The notes beneath the pieces are model-generated. The model worked only from the letters and a program-made list of their open reading frames with translations, made no database searches and had not been told where the DNA came from. A program made the position numbers and the translations under genes. From contig NZ_POAF01000001.1 in the NCBI RefSeq assembly GCF_003309065.1, forward strand, positions 682,001 to 746,000: a stretch of DNA of 64,000 nucleotides, written 5' to 3'. This document shows, one piece after another, positions 33,984 to 52,231 of this stretch. Position 1 is the first letter of the stretch. Each line of letters starts with the position of its first letter. Source of the DNA: Glutamicibacter soli (lineage in GTDB: Bacteria; Actinomycetota; Actinomycetes; Actinomycetales; Micrococcaceae).

Positions 33984-34032
33984 CGACAGCATTGCGTCGA
34001 CAGCATTGCGTCGACAGCATTGCGTCGACAGC
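33984..34032 (+). repeat. 14-bp tandem repeat, three and a half copies
   Basis: The unit CGACAGCATTGCGT is repeated exactly at 33984, 33998 and 34012, with a partial fourth copy to 34032. Each junction forms GCGTCGAC, containing the palindrome GTCGAC. It lies in the 94-bp gap before the tocopherol-cyclase-like gene. Confidence 0.95.
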
Positions 34033-43097: not shown

Positions 43098-46000
43098 TCA
43101 GAGCTTCCCGTCGAGGTAGAGCTCCAGAAGCACTTCCTGCATTCGCGGCGCGTACTCCAGGGACTCGAAGGTGCTGCCGGTGCGGGTGTCCTGCCGCTGG
43201 ACGATTTCTGCTCCCAGCAGCTGAGCCAGCGCCGTCGGTTGCCACTCACCGGGCCTGCCGGCCAGCACCCCGGCATCACGCAGACGCTCGTTCATCCGCT
43301 GGGCCTTGAGCTGCGCGTCTTCGTCCCTCAGCTGCCCGGCACTGCGCCAGCGGTTCAGCAATGCGCTGGCAGTCAGCGTCCGGACGGGCGCCGGTTCCGC
43401 GTCGGCCACCGGCATTCGCGGCGCCGGGGCGGGCTGCACAAGCACCGGTTCCGCTCCTTCGGCCGCCGGGCCGGCCGCAGCCTCGGGAGGATCCAGCGGG
43501 ATCCTAGTCGCGTGGCGGCCCATGGTTTCGAAGGCCTGCCCGTTGTTCCAGCGGTTGGCCGCCGCGAACACCACAAACAGGTCCTTGGCCCGGGAGACCG
43601 CCACGTTGAGCAGCTCGTGGTTGGCCTCGATGAACCCGGCTTGGCCGCTGTTCTGCCCATAGGTTGCGGAGAACAAGACGATGGGCCGCTCCGCGCCCTG
43701 CAGCCGATGCGCGGTGCCCACGGCAACTTTCGAGGCAAGATCCGCCGGAAGGCCCAAGGAAACATCGGCTTGGCGGACTGCTTTCGCGATCTCCCGTTCG
43801 ATGAGCCGCGCTTGGGCGCTGAAGGGGGTTACAACGCCGATGAGCTCGCCGCCGGCTGCTTTCTTGTTCAGTGAGGAATGCCGCGGGTTGTAGATCTCGA
43901 AATAGCGGGCATAGTTCTCCACGATCCACCGGGCAATGGCCTTCGCCTCGGCCTCGTTCCGGCGGCTGGAACCGGCCGGAGAGTCGAAGGAGCCAGGCAC
44001 GTCGTGCCAGGCGAACGCCTCCTCCGCACCGTTGAGCGGGGAATTATCCGCTGGCCGGCGGGGTACCAGCAGGCCCTCGTAGAGCAGCTCGTTGCAGAAC
44101 CCGATGATCTGCGGGTGGCAGCGGAAGTGCTCGCTGAGGAACAGTCCCGGATGCCCGTCCCCGTACTGCCACTTGGAGGCGTAGCTGGCGGCCTTCATCA
44201 GGCTGGACGGGGCGGAGCAGGTCAGCCCGCGCTCCCGCAGGCCGCCCCACCAGCCGGCGGTATCGATGCCCGCCGATGCGGCGACCTCCTCGTCGCTGAG
44301 CTCATCGATGTTCCACACCGGAGAGATCTGCTTGGTATCCCCCACAATGACCGCGCGCTGGGCCAAGGCCAGGGCCGGCAGTCCCAGCGGTGTGTCGACC
44401 TGCCCCGCCTCGTCGATGATCAACAGATCGGCGCGTTCCAGGTCGAATTGATACGGTTCACCGGGCTTGATGTAGAGCTTGAAGTACTTCGGCATCTGGT
44501 AGAGCGTCATCACGAAGCACGGGGTCAAGGCCGCGGCCTGGCGCCAGTAGCGGTCCATGACGCGCCGCGTGTTCTTCTTGCGGTCCTCGGCATCCAGCAG
44601 GTCCTCGGCCAGCAGCCACTGCGCTTCGTAGTAGTGGACCGCCAACCAGAACTGGGCGTAGCGCAGGGTGAGGTCAAGCTTCTCGTCCAGTTCCTTCAGG
44701 TTCTGCGATCCCTTCACCTCGTCGATGCCCTCGATGAGGCGGCCGAAACGGGAGGATTCCACACCCGCGCACACCCGCTGGAATTCTTCCGAAGGGCCTT
44801 GGGACGCCATGACCTGCAGCAAGCGGATCCGTTCGTAGTCCAATTCCGACAGCGCGTCGTGGATCCAGTCGCACAGCCCTGCGATGTCGTTCGGTGCGCC
44901 GAAGTACTTTTGCGCGCTGAAGACGAAGTGGTCCCGCGCGCCGGCCCGGTAGACCTCGCCGCTGTAGGCGGCATAGGTCTCGCCCTTGTTGAGCTGCTCG
45001 ACCAGGTATTGCCCTTTTGCTTCCTTGAGTTTTCCCGCGGCCGGGCAGTACACGGCCAGCGAACCCAGCGTGCTCCCGGCGAGCGCCAATCCGTCCTGTT
45101 CCTGCGGCAGCCAGCGGTAGTCCAGGATTCCCGGTTTGTCTTTGGCCACCGAGGCAAAGGAATTGATGATGTTGGTGACTGCCTGGTTGTTCGTCGAAGC
45201 CCCCACGATCACCGGTGGCGCGGCCTTCTCCAGCGCGCGGCGGGTGATCATGTTGGCGACGATGGCCTGCAGCATCGTGGTCTTGCCGGTCCCGGGCGGG
45301 CCGCTGACGGCGGTGACGTCGCCGCGGCCCGAGGCGAGGAACGCGTGGACGGCGCGGCGCTGCGAATCGGTCAGCGGATTGCCGTTGTCCATCGATCCGC
45401 AGGATTCCTTGGCGCTGCGGTAGAGCCCACCGGCATCATGGATCGAGAGTTCTGAACGGCGTTCGCCCACCCACCCGGTGGCCGTGCTGTCCAGGAGCGG
45501 CGGAAGGGACTCCTGTGCTGACAGGAAATCGTAGAGGTCCAGCAGCGGCTTCACGGCGGTGAAGCGTTCGTGTTCCTGGATATAGCAGTACTCGGTGGCG
45601 ACGTCGAGTCCATCGGCTTGCCCTTTGAGGGCGAAATCTTCCGGAGTGGAGCCCGAAACCTTGGTGAACAGCGTGTCGGCCATGCCCACCGCATCGGCGA
45701 ACGACTCGGCCTGGGAAATGGCGGCGTTGGCCTCGGTGCGCAGGTAGTGCCAGACCTTCTCTTGCGGGCCCGCCATGACTTCCAGCCCGTCGCTGGTATC
45801 CGATGCCAGCCGATCCGCAGGGATCCACGGCGAGGTGCCTTGGTCGAATTGCGGCAGCAAGCGGCCATCCCGATACAGCTGGGCTGCAAGCAGCAGCAGT
45901 CCACTGTGCCCGGATTCCTTGTACTCGGTGGAGAGCAGGGAGATGGCCACTGGCAGAGGCTTGTCCTGGTCGTCTGACCCGTGCCGTCCCGAATTCCTGT

Positions 46001-46169
46001 CGTGGGCTTCGAAGAGCCTGAGCGCTTCCTCAGGTGCGATGACGCCGGTGAGCAGCTCGGCGCGAGGCACGGCGATGAAGGTGGAGGATTTCTCGAAGAC
46101 CACCGATTCCAGCTGGCCGCGCCTGAGCACTCGCGAGAAATAGTCTGCGATTGTTCGGGTATCGTGCAC
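43098..46169 (-). CDS. Large superfamily I (Upf1-like) helicase with AAA_11/AAA_12 domains
   Basis: A 1023-residue protein. About 265 residues of unassigned N-terminal sequence precede Walker A (SGPPGTGKTT at about 289-298). A long insertion separates this from Walker B (LLIIDEAGQVDTPLG, near 590), with VGDTKQISPV just after. The RecA-2 lobe holds VGTAHRLQGAERPIVLFS near 840 and NVAVSRAKDLFVVF near 880. The last ~120 residues form a separate helical domain after a Pro/Ala linker. Such proteins unwind RNA or DNA and occur in some defence systems. The start is GTG with GGGAG upstream. Confidence 0.85.
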   Translation of the reverse strand: MHDTRTIADYFSRVLRRGQLESVVFEKSSTFIAVPRAELLTGVIAPEEALRLFEAHDRNSGRHGSDDQDKPLPVAISLLSTEYKESGHSGLLLLAAQLYRDGRLLPQFDQGTSPWIPADRLASDTSDGLEVMAGPQEKVWHYLRTEANAAISQAESFADAVGMADTLFTKVSGSTPEDFALKGQADGLDVATEYCYIQEHERFTAVKPLLDLYDFLSAQESLPPLLDSTATGWVGERRSELSIHDAGGLYRSAKESCGSMDNGNPLTDSQRRAVHAFLASGRGDVTAVSGPPGTGKTTMLQAIVANMITRRALEKAAPPVIVGASTNNQAVTNIINSFASVAKDKPGILDYRWLPQEQDGLALAGSTLGSLAVYCPAAGKLKEAKGQYLVEQLNKGETYAAYSGEVYRAGARDHFVFSAQKYFGAPNDIAGLCDWIHDALSELDYERIRLLQVMASQGPSEEFQRVCAGVESSRFGRLIEGIDEVKGSQNLKELDEKLDLTLRYAQFWLAVHYYEAQWLLAEDLLDAEDRKKNTRRVMDRYWRQAAALTPCFVMTLYQMPKYFKLYIKPGEPYQFDLERADLLIIDEAGQVDTPLGLPALALAQRAVIVGDTKQISPVWNIDELSDEEVAASAGIDTAGWWGGLRERGLTCSAPSSLMKAASYASKWQYGDGHPGLFLSEHFRCHPQIIGFCNELLYEGLLVPRRPADNSPLNGAEEAFAWHDVPGSFDSPAGSSRRNEAEAKAIARWIVENYARYFEIYNPRHSSLNKKAAGGELIGVVTPFSAQARLIEREIAKAVRQADVSLGLPADLASKVAVGTAHRLQGAERPIVLFSATYGQNSGQAGFIEANHELLNVAVSRAKDLFVVFAAANRWNNGQAFETMGRHATRIPLDPPEAAAGPAAEGAEPVLVQPAPAPRMPVADAEPAPVRTLTASALLNRWRSAGQLRDEDAQLKAQRMNERLRDAGVLAGRPGEWQPTALAQLLGAEIVQRQDTRTGSTFESLEYAPRMQEVLLELYLDGKL

Positions 46170-46442
46170 TTTGGCTCCCTGCGGTTCGCGGCAAGGCCAT
46201 CCCCATCAACAGCTGGTGCGGACGAGTCGCCGTCCCCACTGCCTCACCGGACCGGCAAGCACAGCCCCCGGTTCCAGCTCCTGATGAGGCAAATAACTTC
46301 ACCTCAGCGGACTTTTTCACAGACTAGCAGTCGGCGAGTGGAATCTACCGGTCATCGGCCACGTCGATCCGCGGCATCGGTGGCTCTGTCCGCGAGGGTC
46401 GAGACGAGGCTGTCCGTGCGTTCGACGCTCTGCGGCGCGTCA

Positions 46443-46976
46443 TCAGGCCTGGCTGCGTCGTACGTCCATGCCTGATTCGGCGAGCAGCAAGCTTTCCTGG
46501 CTCTGCGGCCGGTAGTACTCTGCACGGAATGCCGTGAACTCTTTCAGGTGCGGGGAAACCAGCTCATCCATGGCATGCAGGTAGTCCGGCACGATGTCCC
46601 GTGGCAGCCGCAAGCCCATCGTCAGGTGCGGTGTCCAGCGCGCCCCCCTGCTCGCAGGATTCAGTGCGCTGATGCTGCGTGCTGCGATCTCCAACTCGTC
46701 GCTGGCCTCCAGCAGCCACGCCACGGTCTGCTTGCGTTTCGTCCCGAACACCACGGCGCCCACCCTGGTGAGCGTGGATGGAATGACCGCTGGCAGGAGC
46801 TCCGCTGCGCTGGCGACCACCTCCGGCGCCATGGCGGGGGCGAAGGTGATGGTGATGTGGGGTGTCTGCTGCTGCCGGGGAAAACCCCGCTGTTCCAGCT
46901 GCGCAAAGATTTCCCGGATCGACTGCTCTTGTGCCTCGGGAAGGCGCAACAAGATGTTCTCCGGCGACCGGCTCAT
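46443..46976 (-). CDS. 2H phosphoesterase / 2'-5' RNA ligase family protein
   Basis: A 177-residue LigT-like protein with both H-x-T motifs: PHITITF (His40) and PHLTMGL (His117). Family members hydrolyse 2',3'-cyclic phosphates or 2'-5' bonds in RNA or nucleotides. ATG at 46976 is chosen because GGGAGGAACTTG lies directly before it; another ATG nine codons upstream lacks such a site. It sits between a cysteine phosphatase and a helicase on the same strand, though gaps of 89 and 273 bp argue against a tight operon. Confidence 0.85.
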   Translation of the reverse strand: MSRSPENILLRLPEAQEQSIREIFAQLEQRGFPRQQQTPHITITFAPAMAPEVVASAAELLPAVIPSTLTRVGAVVFGTKRKQTVAWLLEASDELEIAARSISALNPASRGARWTPHLTMGLRLPRDIVPDYLHAMDELVSPHLKEFTAFRAEYYRPQSQESLLLAESGMDVRRSQA

Positions 46977-47065
46977 CAAGTTCCTCCCCTGCACAGGTGA
47001 CATGGTCTGGGTCCCAACTTACCAAGCCCGAAAGTTCTCCGGCGATCGCCGCGGTGGATTGCCGG

Positions 47066-47503
47066 TCACCCTCGCAGTGACGCAGCCACTTCCAAAACCC
47101 AGCGCTCTTGTGCAGATGTTTCAACAGCCCGGCGGTGGTATTGCTCCCGTACCCAAGCCACGGCATCCTCCGCCGGGATCCCGCTCATCACTGCCAATAC
47201 CGACAGGGCCGCCCCGGTACGGCCGAAGCCTGCGCCGCAGGCAATCTCCACCCGCTGTGTTGCAGAGCGTTCGCGGGCCTCGTGCAGGGCCGCCACCACC
47301 TCATCGGTGGAATCGGGCAGCCGGAAATCCCGCCAGCGCACCCAGCGGTGCTCGATTGCTCCCGCCGGGGGTCGACGACCGGTGAGGTATACGCCGAAGT
47401 CCGCGGCAGGCGCCGGTCGCCGCAACGAGCGCAGCCCGCGCCCCCTGATCTGCCGTCCATCGGGGAATTCGACGATTCCCCGGCCCGGTTCCCACTGTGC
47501 CAT
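47066..47503 (-). CDS. Protein-tyrosine-phosphatase-fold cysteine phosphatase
   Basis: A 145-residue dual-specificity-type phosphatase. The catalytic loop C-x5-R is ACGAGFGRTGA with Cys89 and Arg95, and a candidate general acid lies in FRLPDSTDE (Asp about 64). It is short for the family and lacks a separate N-terminal regulatory part. Substrate unknown: protein, inositol phosphate or RNA 5' phosphate are all possible for this fold. Confidence 0.8.
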   Translation of the reverse strand: MAQWEPGRGIVEFPDGRQIRGRGLRSLRRPAPAADFGVYLTGRRPPAGAIEHRWVRWRDFRLPDSTDEVVAALHEARERSATQRVEIACGAGFGRTGAALSVLAVMSGIPAEDAVAWVREQYHRRAVETSAQERWVLEVAASLRG

Positions 47504-48055
47504 TTATCCGCCTCCCGCTTCTTCGTGCAGCGCCAAGAAGCCCAGCTCCCGCGCCTATTCATCATGGCTCAACAGTGGCCTGCCCCTGCGTCGAGCACAA
47601 GCACCCGCCAATCACTGGGCGCCATCGGTGCAGCGCCCTTGCCCACCACCCGGGCAAAAGGCTAGCGTGGCCAGTAAGGCATCACCCGGTCACGCCGACC
47701 GCCACGAGGACGGTAGTCTCCTTGTGGACGGGCAGCCACGCGATTCTTTCGGGCCTGCATTCGTGAAAACCTGCAGGCCCAGAATGTCGCAGCTGACGCA
47801 GGCCAACTTCCATCATCTATCGGCTCTCCGACGACGTGTTCCGCGAATTAGCCGCTACTGGGGCCTTCGATCAACGCCGACCCGTCTTGACAACGAACTC
47901 ACGGAAGCATGCGTACAGCCGGAATAAGCATCGTACTTGTGGAACAAAACCGAGGTTGCGATCGATAATCGGCCAGATGTTAAGAAACAGCCCCAGATCT
48001 GCGAATACCCCGGATTCCAAAAAGGAAACCGGGGCATTCACAGTGTTCAGGAATC
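47504..48055. other. Non-coding stretch left of the island
   Basis: About 550 bp without a convincing gene on either strand. Base composition drops towards 47850-48040. No terminator, tRNA or integrase remnant could be identified. Confidence 0.5.
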
Positions 48056-48077
48056 AGACGTTGAAGCGGAACTCCAC
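48056..48077. repeat. Distal 22-bp copy of the ychF 3' end (putative att site)
   Basis: This 22-bp sequence is identical to the last coding bases of ychF at 51148-51169. Read leftwards it encodes VEFRFNV and then TGA. No other ychF sequence surrounds it. Confidence 0.93.
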
Positions 48078-48108
48078 CACATTCCGGCACGTAGCAACGT
48101 CTCACCGA

Positions 48109-48627
48109 TCACCACGAGCGGCCGGCTGAATCATCCTTCTTCCGGTATTTATCCAGCAGTTCCGCCGGAAGGTGACAGGAATCCTCGGGACAACGTGCGA
48201 GCCGGTCCTGGTGTTCCTCGGCGCTTCGCACATAGTTGGCCAGCGGCAGCACCTCAACGGCGATTCGGCGAGCGTCGTCTCTCGCAGCAATGAAAACTCG
48301 GGCTTGATCGAGATGGGCCTGCTTGTTGGAGTAAACACCAGTGCGACACTTCGGACCGAGGTCCGACCCCTGCTGGTTGACACTGTAGGGATCGATGATC
48401 TCGAAGAGGTAGGCCATCAGCTGCCCGACACCCATAACCGACGGATCAAATCATGTGCGCACGCATTCTGCGTACCCGTCGTAGTCGCTGTCGATACACT
48501 CGCTGGTTCCGTTGGCCCTTCCGGTCTCGGTGAACGTCACCCCGGGCAGTGTCGCGATGAAGGCTTGCACGCCCCAGAGGCAGCCGCCTGCCAAATAAAT
48601 CTCTTCAACTACTTGCTCGGCTTCCAT
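48109..48627 (-). pseudogene. msrA: msrA pseudogene (peptide methionine sulfoxide reductase A)
   Basis: From ATG 48627 the frame reads like the short-form MsrA, including the active-site AGGCLWGVQAF, FEIIDPYSVNQQGSDLG, and EVLPLANYVRSAEEHQDRLARCP. An in-frame TGA at 48451-48453 (VRT*FDPS) interrupts it, and the segment before the stop is several residues shorter than the family. The frame continues to 48109. MsrA would repair oxidised methionine; this copy cannot make a full product unless the stop is read through. Confidence 0.85.
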
Positions 48628-48882
48628 GTACCGATACTACTGCTACCTGCGCGGCGATCGTTCTGAGGGGAAAGGAACAACCCGAATACAACGGCTGTCC
48701 CGAGTCCAGGAGAGGTTGCCACGGGCTACCCGATACACGCAACAGCAGATACGGCCCGCTTGAGCTGCCCCCTACGCATCTCTAGACTTCCGTCCGAAGC
48801 CGGAGTTGCCACGCCGTTTCGTTTGCGCCGAACTTGGCCTCAGATTTAACTCGGCCGCTTCGCCAGCAATGGGGTCGAGGTT

Positions 48883-49263
48883 TTACTGGGTCGCGATCCA
48901 CCAAATGGCGCCCGAAGGGTCCATCACCCCGCCGCGCAGGTCGTCGTCCTGGTTCTTGCGGGCAGGCGCTTGGACGACGGTCGCTCCCGCATCGATTGCC
49001 CGCGCAAAGGCGGATTCGGCGTCCCTCACATACAAATGCACATGTGCAGGAGCCGAGTCTGTCTCGGTCGCACCGCCACCAATCATCACAACGCTGTCAT
49101 CAATCCTGACCTCGGCATGCATCAACGACCCGTCAGGGCGGTCAAAACGGCGCAGCAGGATCCCGTCAAAGGCAGCCTCAAGGAACGCGATTACTTCTTC
49201 CGCATTGCAGCAGATCAAATAGGGGCTAACCGACGGGTACGCAACAGGCTTCCATTCGTGCAT
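48883..49263 (-). CDS. VOC-superfamily (glyoxalase-fold) protein
   Basis: A 126-residue protein of the PhnB-like VOC group: YPSVSPYLICCNAEEVIAFLEAAF at the start, then RFDRPDGSLMHAEVRIDDSVVMIGG, and a C-terminal DDDLRGGVMDPSGAIWWIATQ. The conserved His/Glu positions (MHAEV, AHVHLYV) may bind metal. It has no obvious resistance-gene features. Function unknown. It is one of two intact-looking genes in the island. Confidence 0.82.
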   Translation of the reverse strand: MHEWKPVAYPSVSPYLICCNAEEVIAFLEAAFDGILLRRFDRPDGSLMHAEVRIDDSVVMIGGGATETDSAPAHVHLYVRDAESAFARAIDAGATVVQAPARKNQDDDLRGGVMDPSGAIWWIATQ

Positions 49264-49698
49264 GCCGTCAGGCTATGCCAAAAACTCAGCGATGTCAGCC
49301 CCGATGGCCCGATTCATGCTGCGACCGAGGCCTACATCGGCATCGTCTTCATGGCCGGCATCTTCCTGGAACGATCTCGGCACATGGCTCGTGCGTGACC
49401 ATCGACTTTGTAGGAGACCTCGTCTCCGATTGGTGGCATACATGCGTACCAGGCGCGGGATGCACCGCACCAGCAAAGACTAGGTGCTGGCTCAGAAGCA
49501 CGAGCGTTTCGTCTCGCTGTGCTCGTTCAACGATCGAGCAGTTTCACACGCTAAACCGGAACCCCACCGAGTACCGGTACTTAGAACCAACAACGACGTC
49601 GCCCTAGTTGGAACCTTCAGAAATCTGCAGGTCCGGAGCACTACACTCTCACCACCGGTGAACTAGATGCCCGTCAGACACATATACGGCAAAGCCGC
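49264..49698. other. Island stretch without a recognised gene
   Basis: About 435 bp between the VOC gene and the higA remnant. Short frames exist on both strands, but none has a family match; several stop codons interrupt each frame. I regard it as decayed sequence. Confidence 0.5.
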
Positions 49699-50023
49699 TC
49701 ACGCGCCCTTCAACGGAGTGATTGAAGCGATCTGTTCCCCCACGAAACCCTCGGCACAATCAAGTTCATAGTGGCTCTGCAAATAGATTCAAAACTCCGC
49801 CGATGTGCCGAAGTACTACTCCAGCCGCAGTTCGGTATTCGCGGTCATGCCCCGCTTGCCGTGCACGATCTAGTTGATCCGCCAAGGGGACGCCGATGAA
49901 CACGGCGAGCTTGTTCTGAGTGATCCCGAGTTCTTCGATGAAGTCCGCCATGAGATCCTCACCCGGGTGGATTGGGCGATCAGCTCGACCTCGGTGGTAG
50001 TCGGTGAGTTCGACATCTTCCAT
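49699..50023 (-). pseudogene. higA: higA-type antitoxin pseudogene
   Basis: The first half reads RGRADRPIHPGEDL and ELGITQNKLAVFIGVP, the standard HigA helix-turn-helix start. One extra base after GVP shifts the frame; the downstream frame then gives RIN*IVHGKRGMTANTELRLE*YFGTSAEF*IYLQSHYELD, i.e. the rest of HigA with three nonsense codons. The opening residues EDVELTDYH resemble the C-terminal end of HigB toxins, so the toxin gene was probably just upstream, but no intact higB is present in the 250 bp above. Confidence 0.82.
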
Positions 50024-50281
50024 TCCTCCATTTCTTCAGACCAGGCATAGCCACCACCGCGTGATCACGCGAACGCAGTACTTCCTGCGACGATTACCGT
50101 CCAAAACCCACCAGCGGGTTCCCCGCCACACGATCCGGTCAACACGATTGATTTAATGCTCGACAATAAACACACACCGATCGGCCGATAGACCATACAA
50201 TCGAATCGGAGGCCGATCGGGTGCCCCTAATGCGGTGAATCGAAATTTCCACCACGTTACTCCAGATAACAACCTTTCAGG

Positions 50282-51118
50282 CTAATGCGCTAAAGGCTGA
50301 CGATTCACGCGCTCTTCATTAGCCAATCGCAGTTGCAGGGCCACGAGTTCGATGATTTCCAAGGGGTTGTTTGTTGCACCCTGACCGTGGTGCTCGAGAA
50401 CCTCGGCGACGTGTTCCGGTTTCTTAGAACTCGAATACACGAGTACCCGAGTCTTGTCGCCCCATGAACGCAACCCATCGAGGAGTTCATACCCCGCGCG
50501 TCTGCTATCAGGTCGCCCCATATCAGTCACGATGACATCGAAGTCGTTATCGGCTATGAGTCGATATGCGTCGTCGGTCGTCGTTACACACACTGATCGA
50601 ATTCCGACCTCTGACAAGGCTGCACGCTCCCACACGACCGACTCGGGTTCATCATCCACCCACAACACCAGTCCAGAACCAGCTTCACGTAGTTCACTGT
50701 AGAGCCGGGGTATCTTCGTTGGCAGGTTGGATGGGTACTCTTGTGCGCGTGACTTGTATGCTTCCCCGAGTACCTCGATCAAGCGAGCAACCCCTTGATT
50801 CGCGCCAGCCGCGCTTGCCGCCGCATCCTCGCTCGTGCTCTCTATGCGCCCCCACAACTTGAGATATCGGCTCTCTTGCAGAGTTCCTTGCTCTTCCTGA
50901 AGCGCAAAGATGCGTAGAGACACGTACAGCGCGAGGAAAGTAATCGCAAGTGCGAAGCACGCCAGGGGGTTCACCCCGGCATAGAACCAATCCTGCAGAA
51001 CGAGAGACACGACAGTACCGACAAAGCACACACACGACGCGCCAAATGCAAGGGCACGGCCACAATTCCCGAGCAGGACCCGAGCAGATGCGCTGGCGAG
51101 TGATGCACCCTCTTCCAC
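50282..51118 (-). CDS. Membrane-anchored receiver (REC) domain protein
   Basis: A 278-residue protein with two N-terminal membrane spans (about 22-42 and 50-72), a helical linker of about 75 residues, and a C-terminal response-regulator receiver domain (about 149-265). Receiver residues are complete: the acidic pair D155-D156 (LWVDDEPES), phospho-acceptor D199 (VIVTDMG), Ser in VLVYSSS and Lys232/233. There is no DNA-binding or enzymatic output domain and no kinase gene nearby. Start is GTG 51118 with AAAGGGG upstream, only 27 bp after the ychF stop, so ychF transcripts may run into it. Confidence 0.75.
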   Translation of the reverse strand: MEEGASLASASARVLLGNCGRALAFGASCVCFVGTVVSLVLQDWFYAGVNPLACFALAITFLALYVSLRIFALQEEQGTLQESRYLKLWGRIESTSEDAAASAAGANQGVARLIEVLGEAYKSRAQEYPSNLPTKIPRLYSELREAGSGLVLWVDDEPESVVWERAALSEVGIRSVCVTTTDDAYRLIADNDFDVIVTDMGRPDSRRAGYELLDGLRSWGDKTRVLVYSSSKKPEHVAEVLEHHGQGATNNPLEIIELVALQLRLANEERVNRQPLAH

Positions 51119-51145
51119 TGTGCCCCTTTGATTGTCGAAACGCGA

Positions 51146-52231
51146 TTAGACGTTGAAGCGGAACTCCACGACGTCGCCGTCCTGCATGATGTAATCCTTG
51201 CCTTCGATGCGCGCCTTGCCGGCGGCCTTCGCATTGGCTACCGACCCGGCGGCGACCAGGTCGTCGAAGCCGATGACCTCGGCCTTGATGAAGCCGCGCT
51301 GGAAGTCGGTGTGGATCACGCCGGCCGCCTCAGGCGCGGTGGCGCCCTTGCGGACGGTCCACGCGCGGGTTTCCTTCGGACCGGCGGTCAGGTAGGTCTG
51401 CAGGCCCAGGGTGTCGAAGCCGACGCGGGCCAGCTTGCCCAGACCGGACTCGACGATGCCGGCGTCTTCCATCATTTCTTCAGCTTCGTCTTCTTCCAGT
51501 TCGGCCAACTCGGCCTCGAACTGGGCGTCCAGGAAGATCGCCTCGGCCGGAGCCACGAGCGCGGAGAGCTTTTCCTGCATCTCGGTGTCGGCCAGACCTG
51601 CCTCATCGGTGTTGAACACGTAGATGAACGGCTTGGTGGTCATCAGCTGCATCGGCGCGAGCTCGACGAGGTCCACGCCGTCGGTCTTGCTGGCCGAGTA
51701 GAGGGTGCGGCCCTCTTCCAGGATCTTCTGCGCTGCCAGCACTGCGTCCAGGAAGGACTTCTCGATCTTCTTGCTGCGCAGCTCCTTCTCAAGGCGCGGC
51801 AGCTGGTTCTCGATGGTCTGCAGGTCGGCCAGGATCAGCTCGGTGGCGATGGTCTCGATGTCCGAAGCCGGGTCCACCTTGCCGTTCACGTGGATCACGT
51901 CGTCGTTCACGAACGCGCGGGTGACCTGGCAGATCGCGTCGGCCTCGCGGATGGTGGCGAGGAACTTGTTGCCCAGGCCTTCGCCTTCCGAGGCGCCTTT
52001 CACGATGCCGGCGATGTCCACGAAGGACACGGTGGCCGGCAGGATGCGCTCCGAGTTGAAGATCCCGGAGAGGACCTTCAGGCGCGAGTCAGGCAGCGGC
52101 ACGACACCCACGTTGGGTTCGATGGTCGCGAACGGGTAGTTGGCTGCCAGCACCTGGGCACGGGTCAGCGCGTTGAACATGGTGGACTTGCCGACGTTGG
52201 GCAGTCCGACGATTCCGATAGTAAGAGCCAC
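51146..52231 (-). CDS. ychF: Redox-regulated ATPase/GTPase YchF
   Basis: A 361-residue Obg-family P-loop NTPase that binds ribosomes and prefers ATP. The P-loop GLPNVGKST is at residues 9-17; ANYPFATIEPNVG (switch I), DIAGIVKGASEGEGLGN (switch II) and FNTDEAG follow, then the coiled coil and a C-terminal TGS domain ending DVVEFRFNV. The start is GTG at 52231; the sequence before it is pyrimidine-rich and lacks a Shine-Dalgarno site. Its extreme 3' end is duplicated 3.1 kb away. Confidence 0.95.
   Translation of the reverse strand: MALTIGIVGLPNVGKSTMFNALTRAQVLAANYPFATIEPNVGVVPLPDSRLKVLSGIFNSERILPATVSFVDIAGIVKGASEGEGLGNKFLATIREADAICQVTRAFVNDDVIHVNGKVDPASDIETIATELILADLQTIENQLPRLEKELRSKKIEKSFLDAVLAAQKILEEGRTLYSASKTDGVDLVELAPMQLMTTKPFIYVFNTDEAGLADTEMQEKLSALVAPAEAIFLDAQFEAELAELEEDEAEEMMEDAGIVESGLGKLARVGFDTLGLQTYLTAGPKETRAWTVRKGATAPEAAGVIHTDFQRGFIKAEVIGFDDLVAAGSVANAKAAGKARIEGKDYIMQDGDVVEFRFNV
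51148..51169. repeat. Proximal 22-bp repeat: 3' end of ychF (putative att site)
   Basis: These are the last coding bases of ychF plus the first base of its stop codon; the same 22 bp recur at 48056-48077. The base following differs (TAA here, TGA in the distal copy). Confidence 0.93.

Follow-up and report, generated by a model that had tools for sequence, protein, structure and literature searches.

A probable serine-recombinase attachment site at the 3' end of ychF and the module arrays found beside it in Glutamicibacter and its relatives

Introduction

How does an exact copy of the end of a conserved gene come to lie some 3 kb away from that gene, while the gene itself is intact? The question is raised by ychF in a 64,000-nucleotide stretch of Glutamicibacter soli (contig NZ_POAF01000001.1, positions 682,001 to 746,000), which we call the window and whose first letter is position 1. 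Here ychF (51146-52231, 361 aa, minus strand, as are the sites, modules and genes located below) carries at its end a 22-bp sequence, 51148-51169, that is repeated exactly at 48056-48077, with no third copy in the window. An earlier note on this DNA took the repeat for the boundary of one small decayed island, inserted by site-specific recombination at a possibly undescribed site. Our analysis, including the comparisons among relatives that the note had proposed, supports integration at the ychF 3' end but replaces the single island by an array: the window holds a decayed, recombinase-less array of modules, with one or two more decayed sites between the two copies. More generally, we consider it very probable that a clade of large serine recombinases (LSRs) uses the ychF 3' end as its attachment site (attB) and has built arrays there.

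Results

The repeat is confined to this locus, since a 24-base pattern spanning most of it has two matches in the 3.84-Mb genome, both here, and the reversed control has none. While the 22 bp are thus real as a repeated element, they are only the right half of a longer one. When all copies are aligned on the repeat's first two bases, the full site is 48 bp long and consists of a 26-bp left arm that is not ychF, the dinucleotide GT, and the ychF 3' end. The right half, which is the end of ychF, reads GT GGAGTTCCGCTTCAACGTCT, and the distal copies have in common a left arm absent from ychF, with consensus cagaggttggtacgtgccggaacgcg. A profile trained on 28 distal sites from other genomes, G000 and its sister species G009 being excluded, ranks the positions of the window as 48077 (70.7 bits), 51169 (35.9), 49567 (27.7) and 50252 (5.1), the next being at -7.0; in 60 simulated 64-kb windows the highest score was 2.8 bits for the full site and 22.2 bits for the left arm. 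A chance repeat was rejected on these grounds, the distal site scoring 70.7 bits against a simulated maximum of 2.8 and the 24-base pattern occurring only at these two places.

The distal site (48056-48103) is attR-like, with its non-ychF left arm at 48078-48103, GT at 48076-48077 and the ychF-end right half at 48056-48075. The proximal site (51148-51195) is attB-like: its left arm (51170-51195) is ychF coding sequence, followed by GT at 51168-51169 and the right half at 51148-51167. Between them lies a decayed internal site at 49546-49593, with GT at 49566-49567, which scores 27.7 bits with the 28-site profile and 25 bits with a leave-one-out profile. A strongly decayed sequence at 50231-50278 is suggestive only, because its 5.1 bits fall below our 8-bit cut-off and its left arm, at 22.2 bits, equals the simulated maximum. 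Because of the decayed copy and this possible one, we read the interior as two or three modules rather than one.

The same site recurs in most of the genus genomes compared. We scanned the fetched stretches around ychF in 18 genus genomes with the leave-one-out profile at a cut-off of 8 bits; by matched names G009 is Glutamicibacter protophormiae (the sister species), G002 is G. ardleyensis, and G010, G011 and G012 are Arthrobacter sp. MYb229, MYb214 and MYb213. The 58 matches, which are partly dependent because genomes have modules in common, fall in 15 of the 18 genomes, and all lie downstream of ychF on its own strand; none was found in these stretches upstream of ychF or on the opposite strand, and at this cut-off the scanned stretches of G001, G013 and G015 have none. 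In G013 and G015 the ychF end is unaltered, which is the empty site that the earlier note would count as support. Across whole genomes, when up to 3 mismatches are allowed, the repeat has 37 matches, and 35 of them are no more than about 41 kb from ychF. The other two, a pair 1.4 kb apart in G012 (C1:432954 and 434393), are remote from it; one has a full left arm by eye, and we read the pair as a module at a secondary site.

Beyond the genus, a 20-mer of the repeat (2 mismatches allowed) is present in 241 of 290 family genomes, and about 89 of them have two or more matches by a hand count in which some matches were unclustered. We looked for the left arm at 45 right-half matches in 16 family genomes, picked mostly for extra repeat matches. 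At 31 of the 45 the adjoining arm resembles that of Glutamicibacter, with 4-12 mismatches of 24, as against 13-21 for the reversed control at all 45; the remaining 14 comprise eight that are ychF itself and six misfits, two of them owing to a register shift.

Linked to this site is a serine-type recombinase. Matches to the Resolvase N-terminal and Recombinase domains (PF00239 and PF07508) lie downstream of ychF in G003 and G006, between the altered ychF end and the distal copy; the window itself has no such enzyme in or beside its element. Relatives thus carry other cargo between the copies and, in these two genomes, a recombinase as well, as the earlier note had anticipated. At E ≤ 1e-50 the G003 enzyme has homologues in 23 of 295 family genomes, and 20 of the 23 are located within 40 kb downstream of ychF, compared with none of the 18 weaker homologues in genomes with a known ychF position (Fisher P = 7e-9, relatedness ignored). 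In a class-wide sample, three genomes of 394 pass the same threshold. All three are outside the family, and in each the LSR lies at most 12 kb downstream of a ychF with an altered tail, with distal copies of the ychF end 9.7, 12.6 and 10.6 kb on. Relatives of the LSR were found in 60 records of a phage collection and in one of a plasmid collection, the best among the 12 phage records listed being 41% identical over 69% of the length (Microbacterium phages) and 32% over 98% (Mycobacterium phage Kumao). Since all are below 60% identity, no carrier phage is identified among them; the palindromic attP core had no match in the viral contigs.

Comparisons between relatives indicate that what lies between the sites moves. 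Similarity between the window and the sister species stops two bases past the ychF stop codon and restarts about 20 bases before the distal GT, so that the closest relative has breakpoints at both copies; between them there is no blastn match, and the cargo is 3.09 kb long in the window and 1.7 kb in G. protophormiae. Contrary to the earlier note, which saw no other ychF sequence around the distal copy, a degenerate ychF fragment (47690-47809, minus strand, 71% identity, E 4e-10) lies 247 bp beyond it. Its counterpart in G. protophormiae is longer (287 bp) and has its own ychF-like 3' end, separate from the distal copy.

In total we listed 41 site-to-site modules of 547 to 38,373 bp, some of which the finer 8-bit scan would split further; the two largest contain the LSRs. 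Several modules recur at different places. Module A (1501 bp, 98-99%) opens the arrays of G002 and G011 and takes second place in that of G012. Module B is the second module of G002 and the third of G012 (97%); a longer, 87%-similar form of it is the second module of G007 and the first of G009 (98.7% between these two). Module C takes third place in G002 but second place in G011, and module D (3073 bp, 99.8%) is first in both G010 and G012, where different DNA follows it and the flanking ychF is 90% identical. The orders are therefore A-B-C in G002, A-C in G011 and D-A-B in G012. When the junction sequences are compared, they swap partners at or near the GT: at the A-C junction of G011, 93 of 100 bases match the left side of A and 100 of 100 the right flank of C. 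In pairs of empty and occupied sites, one right flank directly follows ychF in one genome and the distal copy in its partner, with matches of 874 and 876 nt at 98% for G002 and G011 against G012, and of 877 nt at 98.5% for G009 against G007. Hybrid sites are seen at the junctions, and the crossover dinucleotide is placed at the point where similarity switches. Such comparison shows modules to be gained and lost precisely at ychF. Module B starts in G002 (+1477) and G012 (+4550) with the variant tail VEFRFSN-stop in place of VEFRFNV-stop, as translated by eye.

A Pfam scan of 20 open reading frames (ORFs) from modules gave a match for 14, one of them below the family cut-off; the matches are GNAT, TetR, NUDIX, HXXEE, MsrA, DUF2268, MerR-TipAS, alpha/beta hydrolase, M23, HTH and a weak glyoxalase. 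Neither PADLOC nor Pfam gave a match for the 828-aa protein of module D. The LSR elements carry Hma-type genes in G003 and type IIG restriction genes in G006.

In the LSR-linked genomes, G057 excepted, ychF no longer ends in FNV; past the EFR codons the frame enters sequences such as TCACGGAATAACCTCTG, which mirror the distal left arm. We read these altered tails as the translated right half of attP. When the reverse-complemented right arm is compared with the distal left-arm consensus, the 38 ychF genes examined fall into two groups: in 22 of them the two agree at 13-21 of 25 positions, so that these genes would read as ending in an attP half-site, and in 16 they agree at 7-11; the reversed control gives 1-9. 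In G094, where the distal site is 23 kb away, the two putative attP arms are alike at 20 of 25 positions, counted by eye. The last Arg codon of ychF is AGA or AGG in 7 of the 38 genes (G007, G014, G016, G057, G192, G245 and G252), and the remainder of all 38 genes holds five such codons in total. Possibly these changes, which look synonymous, protect against further integration, as they would weaken attB yet keep the protein.

Discussion

How could arrays of this kind arise? We propose that the LSR pairs the attP of a circular element with the attB in ychF, cuts at the central GT, and exchanges the right halves. Insertion of a full LSR element would then give ychF a C-terminal tail encoded by the right half of attP. 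The small modules, which have no recombinase, would instead bring ychF-like last codons of their own, often followed by a hairpin (hairpins were judged by eye), and their insertion would restore ychF. Because their right halves again encode the ychF end, attB would be regenerated as well, and with both restored an array beside ychF could be extended by successive single modules. The window would be such an array that has since decayed. In this scheme the LSR as the enzyme, GT as the crossover and movement of the small modules in trans are what we infer from the site, its linkage and the junctions.

A number of observations weigh against this proposal. Two of the 20 ychF-linked LSRs (G057 and G208) are remnants, and of the three unlinked ones that of G149 is located away from ychF, while in G252 and G182 the LSR is on another contig than ychF (LSR at most 0.5 kb and ychF at most 9 kb from a contig end). 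At E ≤ 1e-20, with the best five or fewer candidates per genome scored, the array genomes G002, G007, G010, G011, G012 and G014 have no LSR homologue, which would imply that the enzyme acts in trans or was lost; likewise, among the best five or fewer candidates scored, the window genome has no close homologue of the ychF-linked clade. G001 has an altered ychF tail, yet no LSR nearby and no distal site. An automated search for the inverted-repeat partner arm found it in 2 of 20 genomes (G003 and G006); in G188, G146, G212 and G238 the arm has 11-14 mismatches of 26, compared with 12-13 for the reversed control, and G052 does no better. For this reason we gave up the view that every element has a strict palindrome. 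The long displaced fragments of the ychF 3' end (120 bp in the window, 287 bp in G. protophormiae, about 450 bp in G057) are unexplained by crossover at GT. The att cores of known LSRs mostly fall short of 22 bp, the related genomes in our comparisons are non-independent, and neither excision nor a circle nor enzyme activity was seen.

Could other processes build the same arrays? Homologous recombination or transformation, acting between arrays with the ychF end and terminator sequence in common and with no site-specific enzyme now active, would accommodate the six array genomes without a cognate LSR as well as right flanks that are common over about 220 bp (G014 and G002, 95.9%). However, it is at or near GT that the junctions pass from one cargo to another, dissimilar on one side, the common stretch is often just 22-48 bp or so, all 58 sites have a single orientation, and LSRs are linked to ychF; we therefore regard this process as an unlikely source of the arrays. 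We give even less credence to a tyrosine recombinase or an integron-type system. A 22-bp identical core is long for a serine recombinase and one-gene cassettes are integron-like, but G000, G010 and G014 have just two PF00589 matches each, which we take to be XerC and XerD, and the fetched genus stretches have none, as against two LSRs there (G003 and G006).

Least probable of all, to the point of being hardly tenable, is a decayed duplicate of ychF, made by chance or by a transposon, of which the 22 bp would be the last trace. The degenerate fragment beyond the distal copy would suit it, whereas the fragment in G. protophormiae has its own 3' end apart from that copy, and the distal copy has the arm common to the 28 training sites. 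The sister-species comparison and the site profile together rule out a full ychF duplicate.

The proposal that an LSR clade targets the ychF 3' end brings several known systems to mind. Integron cassette arrays consist of one-gene modules in one orientation at a fixed site, with acetyltransferases, Nudix proteins, glyoxalases and parts of toxin-antitoxin systems as cargo. The ychF arrays likewise have one-gene modules, a single orientation, a fixed site and similar cargo, but the recombinase linked to their site is serine-type, and the arrays hold no tyrosine integrase (no PF00589 match in the fetched genus stretches). The staphylococcal and Enterococcus cassette chromosomes (SCC and ECC) use serine recombinases at the rlmH 3' end and have att repeats of about 50 nt and variable cargo including restriction-modification, as described in PMC6222049, where tandem ECCs with several ccr sets were not observed. 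The ychF system has in common with them a serine recombinase, the 3' end of a conserved gene, repeats of about 50 nt and variable cargo with restriction-modification. It differs in its target, in its actinobacterial hosts, in having a single LSR where they have a CcrAB pair, and in the short recombinase-less modules of its arrays; insertion at ychF in place of rlmH sets it apart from an SCC.

The cis-mobilizable elements (CIMEs), in the account of PMC5704250, keep attL and attR without a recombinase, lie in tandem at one target gene, and arise from decay of integrative and conjugative or integrative and mobilizable elements with later insertion at attR. The ychF arrays, too, are att-bounded, recombinase-less and in tandem at one gene; unlike CIMEs they contain modules of 0.55-0.7 kb, several of them one-gene, and their larger modules of 1.1-3.1 kb recur in different orders. 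The pneumococcal prophage attB also adjoins ychF, and according to PMC6375853 and PMC8637289 it is intergenic, upstream of the gene and 14 or 26 bp long; that site belongs to Streptococcus prophages and has a different attachment sequence. Like site-specific LSRs catalogued in PMC10083194, the ychF-linked clade would target one gene. The words YchF and GTPase each have no occurrence in the main text of PMC10083194 (supplements were outside the search). In the literature searched, which left aside supplements and subscription papers, we found no earlier description of a ychF 3' integration site or of similar arrays, and ychF in print as an integration site only upstream of the gene in pneumococcus. 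SCC-like accretion is of a known kind; the ychF 3' target and one-gene cassettes of LSR type appear to be new.

One may go further, though here we are tentative and put the chances somewhat below even: the system could be a serine-recombinase counterpart of the integron, in which small cassettes with a ychF 3' end, present across Micrococcaceae, repair their target and regenerate attB at each insertion, so that growth could be unlimited. LSR elements, which extend to at least two further actinomycete families, would supply the arrays in trans and would close the cycle by giving ychF an attP-encoded tail. If our proposal is true, defence and accessory genes of environmental actinobacteria would have a widespread chromosomal hotspot at the ychF 3' end, many LSRs whose attB is predictable would be at hand as integration tools, and movement of one-gene cassettes by a serine enzyme would become testable. 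The altered tails also suggest that a very widely conserved GTPase tolerates C-terminal ends written by mobile elements.

Cargo and surroundings of the window array

If the 50252 site is real, module 1 (50253-51169, 917 bp) has one gene, for a 278-aa protein with a response-regulator receiver domain (50282-51118, PF00072), and module 2 (49568-50252, 685 bp) contains the remnant of a HigA-like HTH antitoxin gene (49766-50023). We call this ORF HigA-like by similarity: it is 80-83% identical to relatives only over about residues 16-46, with one more weak stretch to G006 (residues 49-85, 43%), a relative in G007 has PF01381, and a Pfam scan of the ORF itself gave no match. Module 3 (48078-49567, 1490 bp) carries a glyoxalase-family protein (48883-49263, PF00903 and PF18029) and an msrA pseudogene with one in-frame TGA (48109-48627); msrA on its own is a 677-bp module in G002. 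The HigA-like ORF and msrA bear out the two decayed interior genes of the earlier note. The lack of an integrase is likewise confirmed, for in recombinase-domain searches no match of the genome falls inside.

Beyond the distal copy, a stretch that forms a hairpin by eye (48008-48034, minus strand), like the hairpins after other ychF ends, is read as the displaced ychF terminator; a terminator scan of the window did not flag it. Genes for an MkoC-like helicase (43098-46169, minus strand), a LigT phosphoesterase and a tyrosine phosphatase (43098-47503 in all) separate the array from the conserved SCO1664-type gene and belong to a wider variable region between that gene and ychF. The fetched stretch extends to the SCO1664-type gene in 12 of the 18 genus genomes, and of these only the window and G. 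protophormiae have this set there. Elsewhere in the window, a short tandem repeat with a 14-bp period lies at 33984-34030.

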